Source of the DNA: Bacteroidales bacterium
GTDB lineage: Bacteria > Bacteroidota > Bacteroidia > Bacteroidales > UBA932
Reading direction: 5' to 3'
Assembly: GCA_017630155.1 (NCBI GenBank)
Contig: JAGBVU010000025.1
Span: forward strand, 1 to 64,000
Length of the DNA stretch: 64,000 bases
Position numbers and translations under genes: made by a program
Shown: positions 8,748 through 16,451 of the stretch, one piece after another
How positions within the stretch are numbered: the first letter of the stretch is position 1
Layout: each line of letters opens with the position of its first letter
The notes under the pieces: model-generated
Told to the model about the DNA's origin: nothing
Database searches by the model: none
Seen by the model: the letters and a program-made list of their open reading frames with translations, nothing else

Positions 8748-8841
8748 AAATAATAATCCATTTTGATAATTATTTTTCTTGTTGCTTTGATATTTTTGAG
8801 CGATTTTTGCGGCCAATTTTGTGACCATTTATTTATTTGCT

Positions 8842-9999
8842 ATGAGACGGATAACTTCCATTTTTCTTTTATTCGCCACTACGATTCTTTCATCTTGTCA
8901 GGATGGTGAAAAAAATTCCTCAAGTACCGGCGAGACCCTTTATGAGACACTTGAGGTCTCTCTAAGTGACAGAACTCTTACTACAGGCTATTCCGCCACC
9001 ATCAATGGCGTACAGACCGTAGAGGTAAGGCCGCAGGTTAGCGGAATGATTGTAGACATCCTTATTGAAGAGGGAGAGAGTGTTTCAAAGGATCAGGTGC
9101 TTTTCATTATCGACCAGACTCCATATAAGGCGGCATATCAGATTGCGGTAGCCAATGTAAAAAGTGCAGAGGCAGCTTTGTCCACAGCACAGCTCGTCCT
9201 TGAGAGCAACCAGAAACTCTATGAGCAGGATGTGGTGTCGGAGTTTGATCTGATGACAGCACGCAACAACCTTACAGAGGCTCAGGCAAGACTTGCCCTT
9301 TGCCAGGCAGAGGTGGAAAATGCAAGCAATAACCTCTCTTATACTGAGGTGCGCTCCCCTGTAAATGGCGTAGCGAGTATGATCCCATACCGTGTGGGTG
9401 CCCTTGTCAACAGCAATATCTCCCAACCTCTTGTTACAGTTTCTGATGTGAGCAAGGTATATGCATACTTCTCTATGGCGGAGAACCAGATGCTCGATAT
9501 GATAATGCAGTATGGCTCCCTCAATAATGCCATCAGCCAGATGCCTGAGGTCGATCTTATAATGAGCAATGGGGACAAATATATGCACACAGGGAAGATC
9601 AATGCGATAAGCGGTACCATCAGCGAGAGTACCGGTGCAGTGAGCATAAGGGCAGTCTTCAACAACAGGAACAAGCTCCTAAGAAATGGCGGTAGCGGTA
9701 CCATAGTGATACCTACCACTGTTTCCAATTGTATAGTTATTCCACAAACTGCCACTTTTGAGCTTCAGGACAGGATTTTCGTCTATAAGGTGGTGGATGG
9801 CAAGGCTTCATCTGCAGAGATTCACGTGGCACCACAGAACAATGGTGTCGAGTATATCGTGGAGAGCGGTCTGAAGGTGGGTGATGTCATAGTAGCGGCA
9901 GGTGCAGGTCTGTTGAAGGAGGGTACACCTATTAAAAGTAAAGGCCCCTCAAAAGTGGAAGCAAACGATACAATGAAAGTGATGGAGGGGGGCAAATAA
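8842..9999 (+). CDS. RND efflux periplasmic adaptor lipoprotein (membrane fusion protein)
   Basis: The adaptor that links an RND pump to its outer-membrane channel. From the ATG at 8842 the protein has a lipoprotein signal with lipobox LSSC (Cys19), which decides this start over the GTG at 8821. It then shows the paired lipoyl half-motifs (VEVRPQVSGMIVDILIEEG early, and YTEVRSPVNGVASMIPYRVG after the hairpin), an alpha-helical hairpin between them, and a beta-barrel domain. Length (385) is normal for the AcrA/MexA family. The stop overlaps the pump start by one base (TAATG), so adaptor and pump are coupled. Substrate is not predictable. Confidence 0.93.
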   Translation: MRRITSIFLLFATTILSSCQDGEKNSSSTGETLYETLEVSLSDRTLTTGYSATINGVQTVEVRPQVSGMIVDILIEEGESVSKDQVLFIIDQTPYKAAYQIAVANVKSAEAALSTAQLVLESNQKLYEQDVVSEFDLMTARNNLTEAQARLALCQAEVENASNNLSYTEVRSPVNGVASMIPYRVGALVNSNISQPLVTVSDVSKVYAYFSMAENQMLDMIMQYGSLNNAISQMPEVDLIMSNGDKYMHTGKINAISGTISESTGAVSIRAVFNNRNKLLRNGGSGTIVIPTTVSNCIVIPQTATFELQDRIFVYKVVDGKASSAEIHVAPQNNGVEYIVESGLKVGDVIVAAGAGLLKEGTPIKSKGPSKVEANDTMKVMEGGK

Positions 10000-12900
10000 T
10001 GAACGTAAAGACCTTTATTGACCGTCCGATATTTGCAGGTGTGATATCGGTGGTTATCCTCCTCGTGGGATTTATCGGACTCACACAACTCCCTGTGGAG
10101 CAGTTTCCCGAGATAGCCCCTCCGACAGTCAGTGTTTCAGCCTCTTATGCAGGTGCAAATGCTGAGACAGTCCAGAGGAGTGTGCTGGTACCCCTTGAAG
10201 AGGCTGTCAATGGTGTGGAGGATATGATGTATATGGTCTCCTCAGCTACAAACAGCGGTTCGGCCAGTATCCAGATATATTTCCGCCAGGGTACAGACGG
10301 TGATATGGCGATGGTGAATGTGCAGAACAGGATGGCCTCGGCACAGAGTCTTCTCCCCGCCGAAGTGACCAGAAGCGGTGTGACTGTAAGGAAAAGGCAG
10401 ACAAGCCGTATCAAGCAGCTGGCGGTCTATAGCCCAGACAATTCGTTTGACAGAAAATTTATCGTAAACTACCTCAAAATCAATATCGAACCCCGTCTGT
10501 CACGTGTGGCTGGTGTGGGTGAAGTAGATGTCCGTGGTGGAGACTACTCCCTCCGTATATGGCTCGACCCAGGTAAGATGGCCAAATATGGACTCATGCC
10601 TACAGATATATCGGCAGTGTTGTCAGAGCAGAACCTGGAGGCCCCTACAGGTACTTTGGGTACGGAGTCCGACAATACATTCAGGTATGTCCTCAAGTAC
10701 AGGGGACGCTATGAGGAGGTTCAGGATTACGAAAATATGGTGATAAGGGCGGAGAGCGACGGAACAGTACTCTGCCTGAAGGATGTTGCGACCATCGAAC
10801 TTGGAGAGAGGAGCTATGATTATATAGGTATGGTAAACGGCCATCCAGGCACTACCATAAGTATCTCCCAAACCTCAGGCTCCAATGCCAATGAGATCAT
10901 CAAGAATGTGGACAAGGTGGTGGAGGAGATTAGGAAAGATCTCCCTAAAGGTCTTGAGATAGTGGACCTTATGAGTACCAAGGACTTTCTCGATGCATCC
11001 ATTAAAAATGTGGTCAAGACCCTTTTTGAAGCGATACTTTTGGTGGTTCTTGTGGTGTTTGTCTTCCTTCAAAGCGCCCGTTCGACCATTATACCTACAA
11101 TATCCATAGTAGTGTCACTTGTGGGAACTTTTGCATTTCTGTACGGGGCAGGTTTCAGCCTCAATATGATTACCCTTTTTGCCCTGGTGCTGGTTATCGG
11201 TACTGTGGTGGATGACTCTATCGTGGTGGTAGAGGCTGTACAAGCCAAGTTTGATGAGGGGTACAAGTCTGCATACAAGGCGACAGTGGATGCTATGGGT
11301 GGTATATCCACAGCACTTGTTGCCACTACATTTGTATTTATGGCGGTGTTTATCCCTGTGAGTTTTATGGGTGGGACTACAGGTACATTCTATACCCAGT
11401 TCGGCCTCACAATGGCTGTGGCTGTAGGTATCTCACTATTGAACTCACTCACCCTATCTCCGGCTTTGTGTGCCCTGATAATGACACCACACGATGAGGT
11501 GGTAGAGGGGCAGAAGGCGAGCTTCTCCTCGAGGTTCCACAAAGCTTTTGATGCCGGCTTTACCTCTATGGTGGCGAAATACAAGCATATAGTCCTCTTT
11601 ATGTTCAAAAGGAGATGGCTCACACTTATCCTTCTGGTGATCGCATCTGCAGGACTCTACTATATGATGAGTACTACCAAGACAGGTCTTGTCCCCAAGG
11701 AGGATATGGGTTCTATCAATGTCGATGTGAGGACCCCTCCGGGCACCAATATTGTGGAGACAGACAAGGTGCTTGCCGAGATAGACAAAAGGATAAGTAC
11801 CATTCCCCAGATAAAGGCCTATTCCAGAACTACAGGTTTCGGTATGATGTTCGGTCAGGGTTCATCTACAGGTAACTTTGTCATAAGGCTTCACGACTGG
11901 GATCTCCGTAAAGGGGAGGGTGAAGATGTGGAGTCTATAGTGGAGGAGATCTACCGAAGGACAGCAGATATTACCTCTGCAGATATCATGGTCTATACCC
12001 GTGGTATGATCCCCGGTTATGGCGCCAGCAGCGGTTTTGACCTTTATGTACAGGATCAGAAGGGTGGAAAGCTTGAGGATCTGCAGAAGGTAACCAATGA
12101 CCTGATTGTCGAGCTAAACAAAAGGCCGGAGGTGAGCCGTGCCAAGACATCCTTTGATACAAAATACCCTATGTATCTTGTCGAAGTGGATGCTGCACAG
12201 TGTAAAAGGAACGGTATCTCTCCAGGAGACGTGCTCGATGTCCTTGCAGGATATGTGGGTGGCAAGTATGCATCCAATATGAACAGGTTTTCGAAACTCT
12301 ATCGTGTCATGTATCAGGCTGCACCCGAATACCGTCTTGATACAGAGTCCCTTCAGAATATGTTTGTGAGGAACTCACAAGGGGAGATGTCTCCTATCAA
12401 CCAGTACCTCAGACTCACCAGAATATACGGTCCCCAATCGATATCACGCTTCAACCTCTTTACAGCGATCAATGTCAATGGCAATGCCGCTCCGGGTTAC
12501 AGCTCAGGTCAGGCTATCCAGGCTGTAAGGGAGGTGGCAGAGCAGGTTATCCCTGAGGGATATGGCTATGAATTCAGCGGTATGTCGCGTGAAGAGGCCG
12601 CTACCGGCAACTCGGTGGCTATTATCCTGGTGATATGCGTTGTCTTTATCTACCTTATCCTGTGTGCCCTTTATGAGAGCATATTTATCCCTATAGTCAT
12701 CATATTGTCGATACCTTTCGGCTTGGCAGGAAGTTTCCTTTTTGCCAGGATGTTCTCTCTGGAGAACAATATCTACCTGCAGATCGGTCTTCTGATGCTT
12801 ATCGGTCTGTTGGCCAAAACAGCTATCCTTATCACAGAGTTCGCATCCCAGAAGAGGAAAGAGGGGATGTCCATTACCCAGTCTGCGATGTACGCAGCCA

Positions 12901-14462
12901 AGGCGAGACTTAGACCTATACTTATGACCTCTCTGACCATGATCTTTGGTATGTTGCCCCTTATGTTCTCCCGTGGGGTGGGTGCCAACGGCAATATCTC
13001 CATCGGTGTGGGTACAGTAGGTGGTATGCTTGTCGGAACCATTGCTCTGCTGATTATGGTTCCACCACTCTTCATAATCTTCCAGCATATCGAAGAGAGG
13101 GTTATGCCCAACAGGGGGAAAATGGAGAGGGGGCTGATGTTGCTGCTTGTGTTGTTGGCTCTCAATAGCTGCGGTCTTTATAAGGGGTATGACAGGGGAG
13201 AGCTCCCTGTGGTGGATAGCCTTTATACCGCAGGTCCATCAGATTCTGTTTCAGCGGCTACACTCTCATGGAGGGAGGTGTTTGCAGATACATTGCTTCA
13301 GAGCTGGATAAATACAGGTCTCAAGTACAATACTGATCTCAATGTTGCCCGATTGAAAGTTCAGGAAGCTGAGGCGTCACTCTCTGCTGCTCGTGGTGCG
13401 TTGCTTCCAGGTGCCTCATTTGGTGCATCAGGAGGGGTGTATCCAGGTACTTTCAAGGCATCTGTAGATGCAAGTTGGGAGGCAGATATATTCGGTTCTC
13501 TCCGCAATGCCAAGAGGAAGGCCCAGGTGGCGCTCGAGCAGAGTAAGGCTTATGAGCAGGCGGTGCATACGCAGCTGGTAGCCACCATTGCCACAAGTTA
13601 TTATACCCTGGTGATGCTCGATGAGCAGCTCCAGATCAGTTACCGCACCCTAAAGACCTGGGAGGAGAATATAAGGACCCTTGAGGCGATGAAGCGGGCA
13701 GGTAAGACCAATGAGGCAGCTGTCCTTCAGGCCAAAGCAAACAAACTTAGCGTGGAGGCAAATGTCCTCACACTTGAGAAGAATATTGTCTCTACCGAGA
13801 ATACAATGTGTGCTTTGTTGGGGGTCTCACCCAAAGCGATAGGGCGAACCACCATCGATAAGGTGAAAATCCCTTCAACCCTCTCTACCGGTCTTCCTGC
13901 AGAGCTCCTTGAGAGGCGTCCGGACGTGCGTCAGGCTGAACTTGAGCTCGCTAAGGCATATTATGAGATAAATATTGCGAAAGCGGCATTCTACCCCAAA
14001 TTGACCCTTAGCGGTGCGATAGGGTGGACCACAGGTTCGGGGAGCATAGTGCTGGATCCGGGGAGCATCATTGCAAATATGCTAGGCTCACTGACCCAGC
14101 CAATTTTCAACAGGGGGAGACTTAAGGCTAATAAGGTCATTGCGCAGGCGCAATATGAGGAAGCTTCCCTCAAATTTACCCAGTCACTTCTTGATGCCGG
14201 TGTGGAGGTGAACAACTCCCTTGCAAACTGGCAGAGTGCCAAAAAAAGGGTGGAACTTGACAAGAAGCAGATTGTCACCCTTCAGGCGACAGTCTGGAAT
14301 ACACAGCAGTTGATGAGGTACGGAAATGCAAACTATCTGGAGGTTCTCACAGCGCAGAAGAATCTCCTCTCTGCAGAGTTGGCCGAAGTCTCTGACCGAT
14401 TTGAGGAGATACGGAGTGTGATAACACTCTATCATGCCCTCGGCGGAGGATGGGGTGAATAG
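9999..14462 (+). CDS. RND efflux pump fused to outer-membrane factor lipoprotein
   Basis: One 1487-residue frame with two complete modules. Residues 1 to about 1041 are an HAE1-type RND pump: proton-relay Asp405/Asp406 in GTVVDDSIVVVE and Lys940 in GLLAKTAILITEFA match AcrB D407/D408/K940. Residues from about 1042 are a NodT/TolC-type outer-membrane factor beginning with its own signal-like helix and lipobox (LNSC, Cys1058), with the family motifs of two OEP repeats (e.g. ERRPDVRQAE about 1304). The join has no linker. Internal ATGs at 13122 (preceded by AGGGGG) and 13137 could start a separate lipoprotein. A TGA in the +1 frame overlaps the second ATG as TGATG, so a single-base difference in either nearby G5 run would separate the two genes. 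Both modules are confident; whether one polypeptide is made is not. Confidence 0.9.
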   Translation: MNVKTFIDRPIFAGVISVVILLVGFIGLTQLPVEQFPEIAPPTVSVSASYAGANAETVQRSVLVPLEEAVNGVEDMMYMVSSATNSGSASIQIYFRQGTDGDMAMVNVQNRMASAQSLLPAEVTRSGVTVRKRQTSRIKQLAVYSPDNSFDRKFIVNYLKINIEPRLSRVAGVGEVDVRGGDYSLRIWLDPGKMAKYGLMPTDISAVLSEQNLEAPTGTLGTESDNTFRYVLKYRGRYEEVQDYENMVIRAESDGTVLCLKDVATIELGERSYDYIGMVNGHPGTTISISQTSGSNANEIIKNVDKVVEEIRKDLPKGLEIVDLMSTKDFLDASIKNVVKTLFEAILLVVLVVFVFLQSARSTIIPTISIVVSLVGTFAFLYGAGFSLNMITLFALVLVIGTVVDDSIVVVEAVQAKFDEGYKSAYKATVDAMGGISTALVATTFVFMAVFIPVSFMGGTTGTFYTQFGLTMAVAVGISLLNSLTLSPALCALIMTPHDEVVEGQKASFSSRFHKAFDAGFTSMVAKYKHIVLFMFKRRWLTLILLVIASAGLYYMMSTTKTGLVPKEDMGSINVDVRTPPGTNIVETDKVLAEIDKRISTIPQIKAYSRTTGFGMMFGQGSSTGNFVIRLHDWDLRKGEGEDVESIVEEIYRRTADITSADIMVYTRGMIPGYGASSGFDLYVQDQKGGKLEDLQKVTNDLIVELNKRPEVSRAKTSFDTKYPMYLVEVDAAQCKRNGISPGDVLDVLAGYVGGKYASNMNRFSKLYRVMYQAAPEYRLDTESLQNMFVRNSQGEMSPINQYLRLTRIYGPQSISRFNLFTAINVNGNAAPGYSSGQAIQAVREVAEQVIPEGYGYEFSGMSREEAATGNSVAIILVICVVFIYLILCALYESIFIPIVIILSIPFGLAGSFLFARMFSLENNIYLQIGLLMLIGLLAKTAILITEFASQKRKEGMSITQSAMYAAKARLRPILMTSLTMIFGMLPLMFSRGVGANGNISIGVGTVGGMLVGTIALLIMVPPLFIIFQHIEERVMPNRGKMERGLMLLLVLLALNSCGLYKGYDRGELPVVDSLYTAGPSDSVSAATLSWREVFADTLLQSWINTGLKYNTDLNVARLKVQEAEASLSAARGALLPGASFGASGGVYPGTFKASVDASWEADIFGSLRNAKRKAQVALEQSKAYEQAVHTQLVATIATSYYTLVMLDEQLQISYRTLKTWEENIRTLEAMKRAGKTNEAAVLQAKANKLSVEANVLTLEKNIVSTENTMCALLGVSPKAIGRTTIDKVKIPSTLSTGLPAELLERRPDVRQAELELAKAYYEINIAKAAFYPKLTLSGAIGWTTGSGSIVLDPGSIIANMLGSLTQPIFNRGRLKANKVIAQAQYEEASLKFTQSLLDAGVEVNNSLANWQSAKKRVELDKKQIVTLQATVWNTQQLMRYGNANYLEVLTAQKNLLSAELAEVSDRFEEIRSVITLYHALGGGWGE

Positions 14463-14470
14463 ATAGTATA

Positions 14471-14504
14471 AAAAAAGTGCTGCAAATGAATGCAGCACTT
14501 TTTT
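14471..14504. terminator. Terminator of the RND operon
   Basis: Stem AGTGCTGCA / TGCAGCACT, flanked by A6 and T6, between convergent genes; can act in both directions. Confidence 0.8.
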
Positions 14505-14522
14505 AATTTATAGTCGGAGGGT

Positions 14523-15404
14523 TTAGAAGTAGAAAGCCATATAGAGTGAACCTCCAAGGTTTTCGATACCTACGTGGATACCGTCATTACCTGGTGATAC
14601 AAGGTCTGTTCTCACCTCCACCTGCTGTGTTGATGTGTTGAAACCTTCTGAAATCTCATATGCCTGACCACCTATTACATAGTATGCATTGAAGTTGATC
14701 TCGGCTCCGAGTGCCACTTTAGGTGCCACAAAGCACTCAACACCCATTCCTGCAGTAAGACCTGCGAAAATGTTCATCTGGCTATTAGACTCAAGAAGTC
14801 TGTAACCATTGCCGTATGTTGGGGTGGTGTTCCATCCTGCAGATGGTTTCTGGTTGATAGATGTCACTGCATTTGCATATTTGTAAGTTGTCTTGTTGTT
14901 CTGGAACCCTGCAATGACCCCAAAATTGAAGACACCCTGAACCCTGTTTCTCCCTTTGCGGTACTCAGCACCAAACATAAGGCTTGTGCCGGTTCTGCTG
15001 GTGGTGCAGTCATCAATAAGCTTTGTCTCATTGAATGGGTCAAGCATAGCCAACTTGTCATCCTGTACATATTTGTGCAAAAGATTTGTTCTGCTGATAA
15101 GGCCGATATTTGCGCGGAGACCCAAATCTTTGCTGAGCATATATTTGACCATAAGTGAAGCATCAGGTGTGATGGTAGAAATCCCTACCATATCGTGATG
15201 GACAGGTGTTCCTGACAATTCGTCAAGAGAGTTGTCGGTGGAGTTGTTGAACATATTTCCCACATACCTGAACACAGGGCTCAAGTCCACTCCGAAAGCT
15301 ATATCGCCACTCTCAGGGATATAGGTTTTCTTTTTGCCCTCCTGTCCATACATGATGACAGCTGAGCAAAGAAGAAGTGCTATAATTGTTGTAAATCTTT
15401 TCAT
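14523..15404 (-). CDS. Outer-membrane beta-barrel protein of unknown function
   Basis: A 293-residue exported protein with a signal peptide (1-20, ending MYGQ). The mature part has repeated amphipathic strands, e.g. LGLRANIGLISR, GTSLMFGAEYR and GVFNFGVIAGFQN, and ends in Phe-Tyr-Phe, the C-terminal aromatic signature of BAM substrates. I do not recognise a specific family beyond an OmpA-like or porin-like barrel. It lies 12 bp after the lipoprotein gene at 15417-16451 on the same strand, so the two are probably co-expressed and may form a surface complex. Confidence 0.7.
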   Translation of the reverse strand: MKRFTTIIALLLCSAVIMYGQEGKKKTYIPESGDIAFGVDLSPVFRYVGNMFNNSTDNSLDELSGTPVHHDMVGISTITPDASLMVKYMLSKDLGLRANIGLISRTNLLHKYVQDDKLAMLDPFNETKLIDDCTTSRTGTSLMFGAEYRKGRNRVQGVFNFGVIAGFQNNKTTYKYANAVTSINQKPSAGWNTTPTYGNGYRLLESNSQMNIFAGLTAGMGVECFVAPKVALGAEINFNAYYVIGGQAYEISEGFNTSTQQVEVRTDLVSPGNDGIHVGIENLGGSLYMAFYF

Positions 15405-15416
15405 ATGGACTCTGTT

Positions 15417-16451
15417 TTAGAAAGAGATATAATTCCATTCGTATGAACTGTATCCGAAGTCTTCGCTGCTTGCGTATGGCTCAAATACCATTGCTACTTT
15501 CTGATTGGCAACAAACACTTCATCAGATCCATACAATGTGATGGTCCTGTATGAATTTGAACTTGGACTGAACTGCTCGAATGTACCTCCTTCGATGGTG
15601 TACTCATTGACAATATATTTGCCGACTTTGTCGTCATACTCTTCTGCCATGTATGTGAATTCAGATACTCCAAATGTTCTGGCCTCTACACGTACAGATG
15701 CATTCCATACTCTCTCTTTTGAAGGGATGGCGAAGGTGGCATAACCGCTATTGTTGGTAGTAGCCATAAATGTCTTCACTCCAGAGCTGTAGTTTACATC
15801 AATGGTCAAATCTACATTGTTGGCAGCTACATACTCTCTGGTAATAACATATTTTGCATTATCCTTGTCGTATTCTTTAGAGTAGCTGTTCTTGCCAACC
15901 ATTACCTGAAGACGTACATTGTAATCAAATTTTTCAAATGCAGATCTCTCGTTGCAAGTGTAAACACCATCGCATACTGCCAAATCACCAGGGATGATAG
16001 AGATTGTCTTCTCGTTCACTTCATAGTAAACCTCAGTCTCTTTCATTACAGGTGCACCGTTCTGGATGCTCTCCACTTCGTAATATTTGCCTGTGAATGT
16101 TTCAGGTTTTACCTTTACCTCCACTCCGTTTGATGTAGAAGGAACCTCGATCTCATAGATACCGTTGGCGTCGGTGGTGTCAGCATATACAGTGTAGCCC
16201 TGAGCCTGACCTTTTGGATCTAGCTGACTGTTCTCTACCCTTACAGTAACCTTCACGCCGGCAGCAGGGTTGATTTGCTGGATATATTTTCCGTTTGAGT
16301 AACCTTGTCCCATGTCGTAAACAAGACAACCTTTTACAGTAGCCTTGTAAGGGATATCATCAATACTCATAGAACTCTGTACCTTTGTACAGCTTGAGAA
16401 TGCCATTGCCAATGCCAATAGCACAGCAGAAATTTTAAGGATGTTTTTCAT
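15417..16451 (-). CDS. Surface lipoprotein with carboxypeptidase-regulatory-like domains
   Basis: A 344-residue lipoprotein: signal with lipobox FSSC (Cys21), then beta-rich modules. The segment KATVKGCLVYDMG...DTTDANGIYEIEVPS looks like a carboxypeptidase-regulatory/transthyretin-like domain, and a second similar unit (VRLQVMVG ... NNSGYATFAIPS) follows about 110 residues later. Such repeats are used in Bacteroidota for surface adhesion or scaffolding. A -7 box TACCTTTG (16502-16495, minus) lies just upstream, giving the lipoprotein and the following barrel gene their own promoter. Exact function unknown. Confidence 0.7.
   Translation of the reverse strand: MKNILKISAVLLALAMAFSSCTKVQSSMSIDDIPYKATVKGCLVYDMGQGYSNGKYIQQINPAAGVKVTVRVENSQLDPKGQAQGYTVYADTTDANGIYEIEVPSTSNGVEVKVKPETFTGKYYEVESIQNGAPVMKETEVYYEVNEKTISIIPGDLAVCDGVYTCNERSAFEKFDYNVRLQVMVGKNSYSKEYDKDNAKYVITREYVAANNVDLTIDVNYSSGVKTFMATTNNSGYATFAIPSKERVWNASVRVEARTFGVSEFTYMAEEYDDKVGKYIVNEYTIEGGTFEQFSPSSNSYRTITLYGSDEVFVANQKVAMVFEPYASSEDFGYSSYEWNYISF

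Follow-up and report, generated by a model that had tools for sequence, protein, structure and literature searches.

In the genome of a gut-type Bacteroidales bacterium, a single gene encodes both the pump and the outer-membrane factor (OMF) of an RND efflux system. The gene lies in the window, the whole stretch of 64,000 nucleotides that was analysed. The arrangement raises the question of whether the pump and the OMF are made as one chain and, if so, whether that chain is subsequently cut.

A pump and an outer-membrane factor in one reading frame

Positions 9999-14462 of the plus strand form one uninterrupted, ATG-initiated frame of 1487 codons in the open-reading-frame listing. In profile searches, ACR_tran matches residues 3-1028 of the fused protein with 966 bits. 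The protein scores 978.7 bits with the HAE1 model TIGR00915 (cut-off 940.35), whereas the heavy-metal model TIGR00914 (CusA/CzcA) gives 301.6 bits against a cut-off of 701.45. The pump half carries the proton-relay residues Asp405-Asp406 in TM4 and Lys940 in TM10. The model TIGR01845 (outer_NodT) covers residues 1050-1484 end to end (profile positions 2-460 of 460) with 260.7 bits against a cut-off of 210.05, and OEP also matches this half. By these matches, the gene is a fusion of a complete HAE1-type RND pump and a complete NodT/OprM-type OMF, and its predicted function is drug efflux. The preliminary description of this DNA had proposed one frame with a complete AcrB-like pump followed by a full OMF, and the listing and profile searches bear this out. 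The relay residues and the lipobox cysteine, Cys1058, were found where that description placed them. The parts of the operon are as follows.

8842..9999, plus strand: periplasmic adaptor (MFP/PAP); TIGR01730 RND_mfp, 237 bits against a cut-off of 94.9
9999..13121, plus strand: HAE1-type RND pump half, residues 1-1041; ACR_tran, TIGR00915 and relay residues
13104..13136, plus strand: predicted cytoplasmic tail and signal n-region, MPNRGKMERGL; junction comparison
13137..13169, plus strand: predicted hydrophobic signal/TM13 segment, MLLLVLLALNS, ending in the lipobox; sequence and aligned signal peptides of separate OMFs
13161..13172, plus strand: lipobox LNSC; Cys1058 codon TGC at 13170-13172
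13170..14462, plus strand: mature OMF half (NodT/OprM type), stop codon at 14460-14462; TIGR01845 and OEP

The adaptor is itself a lipoprotein by its lipobox (ILSSCQ), and its TAA stop codon overlaps the pump ATG as TAATG. Because the operon consists of the adaptor followed by the pump-OMF gene, the whole tripartite system is encoded by two genes.

A lipoprotein signal at the join

Inspection and a script both find the elements of a lipoprotein signal at the join (NRGKMER-GLMLLLVLLALNSC), namely a basic n-region, an h-region and the lipobox cysteine. If translation begins at 9999, this signal is internal and follows 12 pump helices, instead of standing at the protein N-terminus. With one frame free of stops and LNSC at the join, the gene belongs among HAE1-OMF fusions that carry a lipobox at this position.

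Such fusions were sought in 399 genomes of the same family and 393 of the order. Some apparent frames of 1500+ amino acids (L008/L054, L011/L055 and L022/L058) were rejected because they held an in-frame stop, and every candidate was therefore re-read in the DNA from stop to stop. The survey yielded 31 genuine fusions: the window gene, a 26-member clade from the same family, termed clade A (L052, L053, L089-L110, L114 and L127), and L111, L131, L132 and L133. Because the survey sampled genomes and listed matches, 31 is a minimum count and should not be read as a frequency. The preliminary description had called an HAE1-type pump with a lipobox at the join less familiar; such a fusion is no lone oddity, since whole clades of them exist. 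Two plasmid matches, H3 and H6, looked like one-piece genes and proved on re-reading to be two genes each. L130 (NZ_OY725762.1) and L129 (OY725982.1) are listed in PLSDB as plasmids of Parabacteroides/Phocaeicola. In L130, lpxA and mdh adjoin the efflux operon, and these two sequences may be chromosomal contigs labelled as plasmids.

Tree neighbours of the fused pumps include separate pump/OMF pairs. On a 79-row pump tree, five changes are required to explain the fused state, and starred branches force four of these; the count by itself cannot separate gains from losses and comes from a tree on which some long branches meet. By its position there, surrounded by separate genes, the window fusion is independent of clade A, and it is probably a recent member of a recurrent architecture.

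A hydrophobic segment with a lipobox-like cysteine motif is kept in all 31 fusions, in forms that include LSSC, GVSC, VSSC, ASSC and LNSC, and a basic stretch precedes the segment in nearly all of them. Within clade A, linker length is strongly variable, and mean pairwise identity is 34% in the h-region, compared with 82% for the preceding pump and 66% for the OMF that follows. Nevertheless, Ser(-1)-Cys-Ser(+1) is identical in 26/26 members, which would not be expected inside so fast-changing a region if the site were unused. This invariance within a variable segment is the pattern that selection for lipidation and cleavage would leave. The cysteine would also be invariant under selection for lipidation alone or for an OMF that is started internally.

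The reading that we favour, and consider reasonably probable, is that the window carries a tripartite HAE1-type multidrug operon whose pump and OMF would be made as one chain, lipidated by Lgt and cut by LspA at Cys1058; we infer translation, topology and cleavage from sequence comparison. The fused gene would be translated as a single chain, the first 12 helices of which would insert as they do in an ordinary pump of the AcrB type. Such pumps have a cytoplasmic C-terminus, so a signal helix that follows it would be correctly oriented to export the OMF half. The basic tail together with the OMF's own lipoprotein signal would thus serve as a 13th helix and send the OMF half to the periplasm. 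Lgt would then lipidate Cys1058, LspA would cut before it, and the released, lipid-anchored OMF would move to the outer membrane and trimerise. The preliminary description had already proposed a self-processing polyprotein cut by LspA. This proposal fits the comparative evidence best, since every fused gene retains the lipobox; the cleavage step itself is still a deduction.

For the order as a whole, the recurrence of a join that always keeps a lipobox suggests that a single chain is synthesised and then cut into two proteins. It seems, on balance, that Bacteroidales have repeatedly made LspA-matured efflux polyproteins, with at least three or four origins, in which the signal would act both as a 13th pump helix and as a selected cleavage point.

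One chain or a separately started OMF

The alternative that survives best, although improbable, is that initiation at the ATG at 13122 (or 13137) also or mainly yields a separate OMF, with read-through as a by-product. In-frame ATGs are present at 13104, 13122 and 13137, the latter two confirming the preliminary description, and many clade A members have an ATG 22-32 codons upstream of the cysteine. Of the two starts proposed earlier, 13122 is the nearer to the homologous start, as its methionine, M1042, aligns near the start of separate orthologous OMFs; a start at 13137 would leave only 11 residues before the cysteine, none of them basic.

The context of these codons is weak. The 20 bases upstream are 55% A+T at 13104, 50% at 13122 and 40% at 13137, compared with 68% (s.d. 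7.5) at 19 separate OMF starts. Predicted local folds at the window candidates are -7.1 to -7.5 kcal/mol (-7.3 at 13122, -7.1 at 13137), compared with a mean of -1.3 kcal/mol at separate OMF starts. The candidate starts sit in unusually G-rich, structured sequence. Initiation at 13122 would give an n-region, MERG, with a net charge of 0, whereas separate orthologous OMFs begin with MK or MNR; if the gene is read as a fusion, the pump tail provides the basic residues before the signal. However, A+T content is low at the start of the pump itself as well (45%), which makes the argument from start sites no more than indicative.

Other fused genes bear on this alternative more directly. In six of them (L052, L092, L108, L110, L111 and L131), the stretch that runs from the end of the final pump helix to the lipobox contains no ATG. 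In L052 and L108 an ATG occurs only inside that helix, and the other four are ATG-free over the 40 codons before the cysteine. Internal ATG initiation therefore cannot supply the OMF in these six genes, and an OMF started on its own would have to use GTG or TTG. For the window gene, the start context favours one chain, possibly accompanied by a minor internal start.

The fused pumps L111 (genome G117) and L131 (genome G665), which come from different families of the order and lack an ATG at the join, are the strongest natural examples of genes for which translation as one chain would be obligatory.

A young fusion or a base error

The closest pump orthologues for which the junction was read (L035-L051) are 55-89% identical to the window pump, most of them 73-89%. 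Their pumps stop shortly past an MPxR motif or its equivalent, with the stop codon inside the stretch equivalent to 13104..13136 (MPxRxxx*). On contigs that include the OMF, its start ranges from 4 nt inside the pump stop (ATGA) to ~40 nt beyond it; L049 has a longer pump tail, and L051 has no adjoining OMF. In an 80-pump tree, the window pump belongs to a starred group of nine; none of the other eight is fused to an OMF. To the question of whether relatives have one gene or two at this locus, the closest orthologues answer two, and 30 further fusions are found elsewhere in Bacteroidales. Because the closest orthologues are all two genes, the fusion at this locus is confined to this genome, and it would be either young or wrong.

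It would be wrong if one base had been miscalled or misassembled in a G5 run and the real genome held two ordinary genes, which we consider unlikely, somewhat more so than internal initiation. G5 runs lie at 13114-13118 and 13129-13133, and a +1-frame TGA at 13135-13137 does overlap the ATG at 13137, as noted in the preliminary description. A second, independent copy of the junction was sought in viral contigs, and none was found. However, the TGATG arrangement that such an error implies, and that the preliminary description put forward as the two-gene alternative, occurs in no orthologue read. In L035, L060 and L061 only 3 nt separate the pump stop from an OMF that already shares the pump's frame (MPKRKRE*DMKTILK), so fusion would take no more than loss of the stop. 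The window junction differs from those of its relatives by a few codons, a difference that a base error explains no better than does loss of the stop or a short deletion that keeps the frame. In addition, start-site features at the join are degraded, the assembly is 95.4% complete with 0.07% contamination, and the 30 other genuine fusions show that the fused state is viable. The possibility of a base error concerns the window only and leaves those 30 fusions untouched.

An uncut chain and the two-membrane problem

Many OMFs of this type are anchored in the outer membrane by a lipid on their N-terminal cysteine (PMC13082787). Because OMF N-termini are in the outer membrane and the cysteine follows the inner-membrane helix directly, without a linker, a chain that stayed uncut would have to bridge both membranes. 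Action of Lgt and then LspA at the internal site would resolve this problem, and genes for both enzymes are present in this genome. That pump and OMF instead persist as one covalent trans-envelope protein is a quite unlikely reading. It accords with the in-frame chain, whose cleavage is predicted, and would fix stoichiometry, but it is at odds with the missing linker, with the invariance of the lipobox in fused genes and with the presence of lspA and lgt.

Probable acquisition of the operon and selection on both halves

The congeners G001 and G002 keep the gene order potC-potB-potA, a 325-aa gene, a nitroreductase-like gene, a methyltransferase and a hydrogenase-like gene. Adaptor, pump and OMF are missing at that place in both, and the operon was therefore probably acquired. 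The nearest orthologues of the window pump belong to another genus of the same family. The simplest reading is that the lineage of the window gained the operon by transfer, with parallel loss also possible.

Several observations concern the surroundings. Set against L176 and L177, where the pot-to-hydrogenase order is conserved and the operon is missing, window positions 8821-16451 have the appearance of an island-like acquisition. Two minus-strand genes beside the operon (14523-16451), encoding a 293-aa exported protein and a 344-aa lipoprotein, are also lacking from the congeners' locus, and a C69 peptidase gene is likewise missing from the G001 locus. Elsewhere in the same genome (G000:C15:29576-34053, L001) there is a second HAE1 pump with a separate OMF that overlaps it by ATGA, and both congeners share it.

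Compared with orthologues, dN is 0.08-0.14 for the pump half and 0.25-0.40 for the OMF half, with dS saturated or very high for both, and the dN/dS pattern is similar in kind to that between unfused orthologues. Both halves of the fused gene are under purifying selection. Decay of the fused gene after horizontal acquisition, with no selected function, would suit an operon that is missing from both congeners and a fusion that its orthologues do not share, but these low dN values, their likeness to unfused comparisons and a frame free of stops make it highly improbable.

Significance and comparison with known systems

If the favoured reading is true, these genes hold a natural, repeatedly evolved lipoprotein signal inside a multi-pass membrane protein, and LspA acts as a polyprotein-processing enzyme. 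Synthesis as one chain would fix the pump:channel ratio at 1:1. Questions would then arise as to whether Lgt and LspA act on an internal signal, whether equal synthesis of pump and channel is selected, and whether the OMF sets out from a position next to its own pump. In that case, too, pump-channel genes of ~1500 aa should be expected in gut Bacteroidales, both by gene finders and in the annotation of drug resistance. A search of the open-licence literature found no description of HAE1-OMF fusions or of polyproteins cut by LspA, although one may exist elsewhere.

The window operon resembles systems of the MexAB-OprM/AcrAB-TolC type in its lipoprotein adaptor, HAE1 Asp-Asp/Lys relay, NodT/OprM-type lipid-anchored OMF and gene order, but in those systems pump and OMF are separate genes. 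The clade A fusions have the same architecture and join lipobox as the window gene. However, their pumps are only ~37% identical to it, belong to another HAE1 subfamily with a separate origin on the tree, and are followed by linkers of varied length.

The RND-OMF fusions of the heavy-metal (CusA/CzcA) type in Bacteroidota also form one frame of ~1440-1480 aa, in which the signal peptide of the OMF itself lies at the join. They differ in RND family and in having an SPI-like site (xxA-Q) instead of a lipobox. In all 12 CusA-type fusion genes read in Bacteroidales, a hydrophobic segment leads into an SPI-like site, mostly of the A/G-Q type that is usual for signal peptidase I, and a lipobox is found in 0/12. 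Thus, in each kind of fusion the OMF has retained its original type of cleavable signal. These CusA-type fusions (L151, L153-L160, L163, L164 and L167) are common across Bacteroidales families.

A further parallel is FbcH, the cytochrome b-c1 polyprotein of Bradyrhizobium, in which a multi-pass membrane protein is joined to an exported protein and the internal signal is cleaved. FbcH differs from the window gene in that its signal is of the signal peptidase I type, its products belong to a respiratory complex, and it has no lipoprotein site.
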